A DNA stretch of 64,000 nucleotides, from assembly GCF_002441935.1 (NCBI RefSeq), contig NZ_CP023668.1, positions 682,001 through 746,000 on the forward strand, written 5' to 3'. This document shows positions 56,456 through 59,501 of the stretch, one piece after another. Numbering within the stretch: position 1 is the stretch's first letter; every line of letters begins with the position of its first letter. A model generated the notes under the pieces. That model was not told the origin of the DNA. It did not search any database and saw only the letters and a program-made list of their open reading frames with translations. The translations under genes and the position numbers were made by a program. The DNA comes from Mesoplasma lactucae ATCC 49193. GTDB lineage: Bacteria; Bacillota_I; Bacilli_A; Mycoplasmatales; Mycoplasmataceae.

Positions 56456-58693
56456 TTATTTAGCTTTCTTTGTAGCTGGTTTTTTCTTTTTAGTTGTAGT
56501 CTTACGTTTTTTAATTGTTTTCTTTTTAGGTTTGTCATCTTCATCAGTTTTTTCTGGGATAACGTATTCTTTTCAAGAACCATCTGATTGTTCATATTCT
56601 CTATATGAACATCCTGTAATAGGGAAGTTTGAACATCCTCTACCACGGTTGAAGTAAGAACGAATGAATACTAAATGACCTTCGTGACACTTAGGACAAA
56701 TTTCATCACTTTCTTCTACAGCTTTTTCTTTTTCTTCTACAACTTTTACAGATAAGTTATCGTAGATATTTTTTAATCATGGTTTATATTCCATTTTACC
56801 TTCAGCAATCTTATCTAAAGTTTCTTCCATTTCAGCAGTATAGTCTAAGTTAAATTCTTCTGGGAATTCTTTGTATAGATAATCATCTGCAATATATCCA
56901 AAGCGTTCAACTTGAATTGGTTTACCTTTGTGGTATTTAACATATGAACGATCTTGTAATTTAGAAAGAATAGGGTTGTAAGTAGAAGGTCTACCAATTC
57001 CTAATTTCTTTAATTCTCTAATTAAAGAAGCTTGGTTATACATGTTTGGTGGAGAAGTTTTTGCATCTTCTTCAACAATCTTGCTTGGGTCAATCTTAAT
57101 TACAAAACCTTTATCTTGTGCTAATTGAGGTGCTGTTTCATTATTTTTTACAACAATTTCATCATTGTCATCTAATTCAATGTTTTCATCACTTTTATCA
57201 ATTGAAAGTTCTTGATAACCTAAGTTTTTAACTTCTTGTCATGATTGTTTAAATTCATAGCCATTGTTATCAAAAGTTCATCTGTGGTTAACTCCACTAG
57301 GACCATGCATTAATGATTTCAAAGTATTTCATCAAATTAAGTTATAAACACGTTTTTGTAAATCGTTTTCTAATTTATGATCAACTAATCACGGTGCATC
57401 AGAAATGTGAGTTGGACGAATAGATTCGTGGGCATCTTGAGTATTTGCTTGTTTACCTTTTGGTTTTAAAGGATATGCAAATAATTCTTCTTTATAGTTT
57501 TTAGCAATATAGTTTTTTGCTTCATGAATAAAGTCATCACTATATCTTTGTGAATCTGTACGGATATATGTAATTAATCCTTCTTCATATAGTTTTTGAG
57601 CAGACATTGTAACTTGTGCTGCACTTAAACGTAATTTAGTAAATCCATCTTGTAGTAATCCAGCGGTTGAATAGGGTTTGAATGATCTTGTTTCAAATTC
57701 AGTTCCTTTGTAATCAACACAGTTGTAATCTTCTGTTAAAGCATCAAGAACTTCTTCATCTTTTGGTGGAACTAAATAATAAGTATCAGGTTTATTAATT
57801 AAAAGCCCTTCATCATCTTTATTTAAATCCAGGTGAATGTTTTTAGATTCATCAATTACTTTAATTCTTTTATATTTAATTTCTTCAAAGGCTTTAATTT
57901 CTCTGTCTCTATCAACAACAAGTTTTAAAGCAGGTGTTTGCACACGTCCAGCACTTAAAAGTCCTGTAGCTTTTTGTAAAACTCCTGAAACTAAGAAACC
58001 AATAATCTTATCTAACATTTGTCTTGAGATAGCAGCATTTACTAAATCCATATCAATTTCTCTTAAATGATCAAAAGCATCTAAAACAGCTTCTTTAGTA
58101 ATTTCATCAAAAGTCATACGTTTGATGTTTTTATTCTCACCATCAAATAAGTTCTTTAAGTGTCAAGCAATTGCTTCCCCTTCACGGTCAGGGTCGGAAG
58201 CTAGAATAATTAAGTCAGCTTTTTTACCAGCTTTTTTAATTGCATTAATTTGTTTAGTTTTTGAACGGTCATTAATAAAGATTGGTGTCATTGTTTCTGT
58301 ATCAATCCCTAAGTTATTTTTCCCTCTGTTAGCAATTTTAGTAATGTGTCCAACACTTGCTAAAACTTCAAATTCATCTTCTGGATGTCCTTCTTCTAAG
58401 AACCCTTTGATTTTGGCAACTTTAGTTGGTGATTCGACTAATACTAAAATTTTTGGTTTTTTAGCATTAGAAACAAACTTCACACCTTCATTAGTTAACT
58501 TGTTAACAACATCATTAACTTCATCATCACTAATGTTTGTAAAAACTGTGTGTAAGGCATCAATTAAATCTTCTTTAGCAATAGTATTGTCATTCATATC
58601 TAAAAAAGTTTTTACATATTCTAAGAATTGATCTAAAGTTTTAATTCCTTTTAATCTTGTCTTCACGTTTAATTTTTTCATTTTTGTTGGCAT
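56456..58693 (-). CDS. topA: DNA topoisomerase I with an extra N-terminal domain
   Basis: A 745-aa type IA topoisomerase. The Toprim domain starts near residue 80 (L-V-E-S-P-T-K) with D-P-D-R-E-G-E near 165. The active-site tyrosine is in Y-I-R-T-D-S near 376. A C4 zinc ribbon (C-P-K-C … C-S … G-C) lies near the C-terminus, then a Lys-rich tail. Bacterial TopA normally begins directly with the Toprim domain; here about 75 extra residues precede it and resemble sigma-70 region 1.1. AAAGGAGC precedes the ATG. TopA relaxes negative supercoils made by gyrase. Confidence 0.94.
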
Positions 58694-58715
58694 ATTAAGC
58701 TCCTTTTAAAATTAG

Positions 58716-58924: not shown

Positions 58925-59419
58925 TTAACGTCAATATTTCTTTCTTTTGTTATGAGTTCTAATCCCCAGAATGTCATCAACTGATTTTGGCAAATCAAAG
59001 AAATCTTTATAACGATTTAAGATTGTACCTCATCTCATATTCGCAGCATCTCTAAATTCACCAATTTTTCTCTCAACTTCATAATCGGTTAAATCATAAT
59101 CAATGTCATGAGTTTCTGGTAGTAAGATTCATGACTTTCTTTCAAATCCATTATCGGTTGTTACTTCAATATAAGCATTTTGATTAAAGATGTCTTTAAT
59201 ATAATCTGCTAAATCATCTAAAAGATATTCATCTTGATAATTAGTTTTTGGAGCTTCTTGGATTTGTAAAGCTACAAAAACATCATCAAAAGTTTCGATG
59301 ATTAAAAAAGGATCTGCAACGATATTTCCGTTTCTGTCCTTATGATCCATGATGATAATGTCACCAGGAGTTATTGCTTGTTCTCTTAATAAAGTAATTT
59401 TTCTATTTAAACTTTCCAT
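58925..59419 (-). CDS. Hypothetical protein, possibly SH3-barrel (MazF/PemK-like) at its N-terminus
   Basis: A 164-aa protein of unknown function. Residues about 16-55 read P-G-D-I-I-I-M-D…D-P-F-L-I-I-E-T-F-D-D-V-F-V-A-L-Q-I, which recalls the P-G-D-I-V-x-V…R-P-x-L-V-I pattern of MazF-type barrels, but the key Arg is replaced; the link is weak. The C-terminus is rich in Arg/Trp/Lys. ATG at 59419 is preferred over 59428 because the ribosome-binding GAGGA is 9 bases away. One TGA (Trp) splits it. No antitoxin partner is seen. Confidence 0.7.
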
Positions 59420-59501
59420 ATAAACCATTCCTCACTATTTACTTAAAATTATAAACTTTAACCCTTAAATATGAGAAAATATAAGAATTTTTTAATCGTA
59501 A

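Follow-up and report, generated by a model that had tools for sequence, protein, structure and literature searches.

What are the roughly 75 residues that precede the usual start of topoisomerase I at this locus, and what might they do there? We analysed a stretch of 64,000 nt (G000:C1:682001-746000), here called the window, from the genome of a wall-less bacterium; this genome of 837,471 bases forms a single contig and reads TGA as Trp. The preliminary description of its sequence had pointed to these residues, and the comparison bears it out: the TopA proteins of relatives open directly at M(A/S)K-ILVLLESP. Window positions 58445-58693 (minus) encode TopA residues 1-83 under code 4.

The topA gene and its fused product

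The gene, the enzyme core, the joint between extension and enzyme, and the ribosome-binding sequence were placed as follows.

56456..58693, minus strand: topA, 745 codons plus stop under genetic code 4 (open frame under table 4); the product consists of an N-terminal region 1.1 domain, a type IA topoisomerase core, one Zn ribbon and a Lys-rich tail
56459..58453, minus strand: TopA core, residues 81-745 (invariant columns in 17 TopAs; family scans)
58454..58474, minus strand: fusion joint, residues 74-80 (V-S-N-A-K-K-P; alignment with the TopA of the congener, G001, and codon listing)
58700..58705, minus strand: Shine-Dalgarno sequence AAGGAG, 6 nt ahead of the ATG of the fused gene (sequence read directly)

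Judged by its sequence, TopA is a complete bacterial topoisomerase I that has retained its catalytic motifs. Family scans returned Topoisom_bac (PF01131, E=2e-87) and Toprim (E=9e-20), and the score against TIGR01051 (467.4 bits) exceeded the curated cut-off of 456.4. The catalytic residues E87, D167-x-D169-x-E171 (Toprim) and Y376 (in TYIRTD) are invariant across 17 TopAs, and a C4 Zn ribbon starts at about residue 666. This is the sole type IA topoisomerase of the source genome.

At the joint, N-A-K-K-P-K-ILVLVESPTK of the fused protein aligns with M-G-K-Q-K-N-ILVLVESPTK of the congener. Asn76 stands opposite Met1 of the congener, from which we conclude that the old TopA start methionine has been replaced. 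Among the first 140 codons, ATG, GTG or TTG occurs only at codons 1, 5, 10, 33 (ATG), 71 (GTG) and 135, leaving no start codon between 71 and 135, and direct reading of the sequence revealed no suitably spaced Shine-Dalgarno sequence for GTG71. The codon signal of the extension was 0.49 bits per codon in frame, whereas the other two frames gave -1.19 and -0.94. Because a Shine-Dalgarno sequence lies ahead of codon 1, the old start is lost and the codon usage is coding-like, translation must yield the fused protein. The linker between the N-terminal domain and the Toprim domain is about six residues long.

The occurrence of the fusion in one genome only would also fit a chimeric assembly or the mistaken joining of an upstream frame to TopA. 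The probability of such an artefact is negligible. The genome is a single contig, the upstream non-coding DNA is unrelated, and both the in-frame coding signal and the Shine-Dalgarno sequence ahead of codon 1 speak against it. Moreover, the copy has diverged from rpoD at half its residues, so that a chimera with the rpoD locus is already refuted.

A gene of 167 aa lies upstream of topA (window 58925-59428, minus); it matched no Pfam or NCBIfam family, and the congener has arcA at this place.

Homology of the extension to region 1.1 of RpoD

The preliminary description had likened the extension by eye to sigma-70 region 1.1, on the strength of the pattern I-x-x-E-D-L-x-D-A-L ... I-S-D-D-E-V ... 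L-x-x-x-G-V-K-F-V. The pattern is present in the TopA N-terminus, and the relationship goes beyond likeness: the domain is homologous to region 1.1 of the genome's own RpoD, of which it is a paralogue. It comprises the following parts.

58475..58687, minus strand: TopA residues 3-73, region 1.1 domain homologous to own RpoD residues 2-72 (BLASTP; RpoD-only profile)
58637..58693, minus strand: basic N-terminal tail, residues 1-19 (MPTKMKKLNVKTRLKGIKT), common to the RpoD of both genus members
58472..58636, minus strand: folded core, residues 20-74, with helices at 20-33, 40-50 and 56-68 and strands at 37-39 and 72-74 (AlphaFold2)

In BLASTP, residues 3-73 of TopA aligned gap-free with residues 2-72 of RpoD at 35/71 identities (49%; E = 3e-20). 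The alignment score of the two N-termini was 186, compared with a mean of 30 and a maximum of 60 in 5,000 shuffles (z = 27.9). When the genome was queried with its own fused TopA, the second match (residues 3-75, E = 9e-16) was rpoD, which adjoins dnaG on its downstream side. A profile built from RpoD N-termini only matched the TopA domain with 78 bits (E = 7.7e-23). With both genus members left out, the profile of the relatives' RpoDs still gave 67.5 bits (E = 1.9e-19), while 2,000 shuffles did not exceed 12.4 bits. On these alignments we consider it close to certain that the TopA N-terminal domain is a homologue of RpoD region 1.1.

The homology reaches into the basic tail, a part that the preliminary description left unmentioned. 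K6, K7, L8, N9, K11, L14, K15, I17, K18 and T19 are invariant in the alignment of the three sequences. The tail is identical to that of own RpoD at 7 of 11 polar positions, and in the folded part 9 of 15 acidic positions have stayed acidic. Conservation of the tail, most of which falls outside the predicted core, is thus no lower than that of the folded part, suggesting that a surface, beyond the fold, is under selection. The net charge of TopA residues 19-75 is -8 (own RpoD equivalent: -13) and that of the whole stretch 1-75 is -1. The TopA copy lacks the acidic linker found after region 1.1 in RpoD.

The AlphaFold2 model of the isolated domain (pLDDT 79) was compact, made up of three main helices plus a small hairpin. 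Identical secondary-structure elements appeared in a model of full-length TopA whose alignment contained no RpoD rows; this model was built from TopAs alone, as a mixed alignment of TopAs and RpoD fragments misaligned them. The domain is thus predicted to fold independently. Small helical domains seldom give significant matches in Foldseek. The structural comparison, proposed in the preliminary description, yielded nothing significant against PDB or BFVD, but sigma-A (TM 0.52, rmsd 3.1) was among the few alignments above TM 0.5 with rmsd near 3.

Sequence searches also turned up a competing identity, a pair of calcium-binding EF-hands, or else some other helical domain in place of region 1.1. 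The top PDB sequence matches were calmodulins (phmmer E = 7e-4, profile E = 3e-6). However, the candidate loop, L-D-M-N-D-N-T-I-A-K-E-D, has no acidic ligands at positions 1 and 3, and there is one loop-like stretch instead of two. The predicted fold is a single helix-strand-helix-helix-strand unit. In Foldseek, where all E-values were poor, calmodulins and EF-hands mostly gave TM 0.34-0.45 and rmsd 4-11, less close than sigma-A. The profile of canonical Bacilli region 1.1 likewise picked up an EF-hand protein, indicating that the pattern is shared, and the direct homology to RpoD is decisive. We therefore give an EF-hand or other helical domain only a very slight probability.

The Pfam model of region 1.1 (PF03979) matched neither the TopA domain nor own RpoD in the Pfam scan. 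The divergence of the lineage leaves it blind to both copies. The matches that Pfam and NCBIfam did return for the extension were dismissed as noise (Phage_TAC_15, 4e-4; mannitol dehydrogenase, 1.5e-3; RpoD PRK09210, 0.015). A profile search without a sigma-1.1 match was what the preliminary description had named as grounds for giving up the likeness. Such a search is negative with PF03979 and with PDB, where the best, weak matches are calmodulin, and positive only with profiles of the relatives' RpoDs. Applied as it stood, this criterion would have been misleading.

Is the N-terminus of RpoD in this family region 1.1 at all? The segment sits N-terminal to regions 1.2-4 of the housekeeping sigma factor. 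We compared an alignment of 18 family RpoD N-termini plus the TopA domain (A2) with 16 Bacilli region 1.1 sequences matched by PF03979 (A3). Using hhalign, the score was 35.2 over 59 columns (probability 91.6, E = 8e-7), and 33.4 when A2 was restricted to its RpoD rows. In the controls, 200 column-shuffled alignments scored 10.4 on average and 18.1 at most, and a reversed alignment scored 19.5. By this profile comparison, the family RpoD N-termini are genuine region 1.1, of a diverged Mollicute branch. PF03979 misses this family's region 1.1 (A2), which moreover gives false calmodulin matches (E 3e-6); automated annotation will overlook or misname it.

The TopA domain resembles region 1.1 of RpoD/SigA (PF03979) in being N-terminal and homologous, in its folded part, acidic though less so than that of own RpoD, and in its three predicted main helices plus hairpin. 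Unlike in sigma factors, region 1.1 here is carried by TopA, with neither the acidic linker nor promoter-binding regions; like that of own RpoD, it lies below Pfam detection. Family scans found no sigma region 1.2, 2, 3 or 4 in the fused protein, the remainder of which is TopA. In terms of sequence the domain is region 1.1 of a diverged Mollicute branch, and the architecture of the protein is that of TopA plus a new module at the N-terminus.

Distribution and origin of the fusion

In the order, 310 of 320 genomes were matched and, among the matches listed, a TopA matched from residue 1 only in the source genome; the listing ran from the highest score downwards, and a fused TopA would be expected near its top. 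A region 1.1 model applied to 60 genomes of the family found RpoD almost everywhere and TopA only in the source genome. The TopA of the congener has no N-terminal region 1.1 domain. Among 156 TopA-like frames, drawn from the order as well as from diverse phyla, no further match to the domain was detected, nor did a contig scan of 80 loci among the matches listed, located by the conserved Toprim part, reveal it. A literature search, whose coverage excluded most subscription journals, returned no report of a fusion of sigma region 1.1 to TopA.

Apparent N-terminal extensions of TopA in G202 (from residue 9), G106 and G104 (from residues 36-47) were rejected as read-through of stops or neighbouring DNA. 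PF03979 matches in unusually long frames of class genomes were also discarded: that in G329 was a chance match and that in G364 an ordinary RpoD with a large insert. The latter, the housekeeping RpoD of G364 (L235:722-3277, minus strand; 851 aa), probably has its regions 1.2 and 2 separated by a very large insert.

In trees of the domain, the TopA copy grouped with the RpoDs of its own genus, just outside the two, with support of 94/91 and 95/92 under two models. Its branch was longer than that of either genus RpoD. From this grouping, the source is the rpoD of the same lineage. AU tests did not reject copying after the species split (p = 0.087; 0.42 and 0.06). We propose that the 5' end of rpoD, from the start codon to just past region 1.1, was duplicated onto topA within the genus lineage. 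The fragment would have joined topA in frame with the old TopA start, and the copy would since have persisted at the N-terminus of the sole type IA topoisomerase as a folded domain.

Chance recombination could by itself have given topA the start region of rpoD; once the old start was lost, the domain could not be dropped, and on this reading it would have no specific role. The restriction to one genome, the lost start codon, and the identity of 49% to own RpoD on a branch longer than that of either RpoD are all in keeping with such a tolerated fusion. Yet the fold, the core and many polar positions were retained despite this divergence, and a useless segment would be expected to decay or to be shortened through use of ATG33 or GTG71 as the start. 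An apparent second, separate recruitment of region 1.1 in related Spiroplasma-like genomes also argues against mere tolerance, which we consider rather unlikely.

This second region 1.1-like domain is weaker (E 5e-13 to 1e-8 with the RpoD-only profile). It starts uncharacterised proteins of 483-502 aa in the Spiroplasma-like genus g7, at these positions.

L176:4937-6385, plus strand: region 1.1-like protein, genome G186
L177:3166-4665, minus strand: region 1.1-like protein, genome G022
L178:2711-4216, minus strand: region 1.1-like protein, genome G007
L179:2891-4375, minus strand: region 1.1-like protein, genome G191

The one g7 protein that was scanned had no Pfam, NCBIfam or PADLOC match. 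The g7 genes adjoin a gene for a DUF4011/AAA_11/AAA_12/REase helicase of about 1,240 aa, similar to the anti-phage proteins ProA/Hhe/PDC-S37. These matches suggest that the region 1.1 module left sigma more than once.

The scans of the family also showed that type IA topoisomerase (PF01131) is absent from 22 of the 60 genomes (g5, g6, g10, g12 and 15 of the 20 of g11), many of them complete. In the 12 of these that were scanned with TIGR01051, the model gave noise at most. The same genomes each contain four to six Toprim matches, whose frame sizes and places fit GyrB, ParE, DnaG and RNase M5/RecR. It looks from these scans as if topA was lost several times in the family.

Possible function of the TopA region 1.1 domain

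Region 1.1 is an inhibitor of DNA binding in free sigma-A and sigma-70, and in the polymerase it occupies the main channel (PMC11156646). The N-terminal domain of the delta subunit (HARE-HTH, PF05066) is reportedly similar to the globular domain of region 1.1; its docking site on the polymerase is the beta' shelf/jaw (PMC7749165). Unlike delta, the TopA domain is RpoD-derived in sequence, and PF05066 had no match in TopA (E up to 10) or in the source genome. Contacts between TopA and polymerase differ by species (E. coli, mycobacteria, pneumococcus) and evolved repeatedly (PMC9352719; PMC8115823). Taken together, these contacts, the place of region 1.1 in the main channel and the docking of delta make a polymerase-recognised domain on TopA our best guess.

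The region 1.1 domain may be a docking or competition module directed toward the transcription machinery. As RNA polymerase already recognises region 1.1, the fusion would recruit TopA to the enzyme at promoters or close to them. Negative supercoils arise there, and the DNA channel of polymerase that is free or initiating is unfilled. The module would then correspond to the C-terminal contact of E. coli TopA with the polymerase, having evolved independently of it. The two proteins are alike in being complete type IA enzymes (TIGR01051) with catalytic motifs, a Zn ribbon and, possibly, a polymerase link. Unlike in E. coli TopA, whose polymerase-binding module is C-terminal, the extra module here is N-terminal and sigma-derived, and the C-terminus is short, as in relatives.

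Conservation of the tail and of many polar positions, beyond the core, speaks for a retained function. Against docking on the polymerase stand the lower acidity, the missing acidic linker, the restriction to one genome and the fact that the congener manages without the domain. It also counts against docking that DNA fills the main channel of elongating polymerase, and that region 1.1 alone is not known to bind core polymerase strongly.

The domain could alternatively act in cis, as an acidic DNA mimic that occupies or guards the DNA groove of TopA. Until displaced by a partner, it would keep relaxation or non-specific binding low. The suppression of DNA binding by region 1.1 in free sigma-A and sigma-70 (PMC11156646), the net charge of -8 of the folded part and the very short linker to Toprim would suit such a gate. 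However, the domain is less acidic than that of RpoD, its tail is basic, and relatives need no such gate; we think this reading unlikely. Linkage to RNA polymerase and transcription is our first choice of function, ahead of gating in cis and of a tolerated fusion. We infer tentatively, at somewhat less than an even chance, that the region 1.1 captured by duplication of a piece of sigma couples the sole type IA topoisomerase to RNA polymerase, or to competition for its DNA channel. Taken jointly, the identity of the domain and a docking or competition mechanism fall just short of an even chance.

The fusion suggests a new way to link or gate DNA relaxation and transcription. As a natural in-frame joining of a sigma domain to TopA, it offers a clean test of region 1.1 working outside sigma, and of whether bringing TopA to the polymerase suffices for coupling. 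The couplings known from several bacteria each rely on a different, non-homologous contact. It also indicates that region 1.1 is able to move between proteins, a mobility hidden by the divergence of this lineage from the Pfam model. If the proposed coupling is true, region 1.1 would be a portable polymerase-targeting module, acquired separately by a putative defence protein in Spiroplasma-like genomes.
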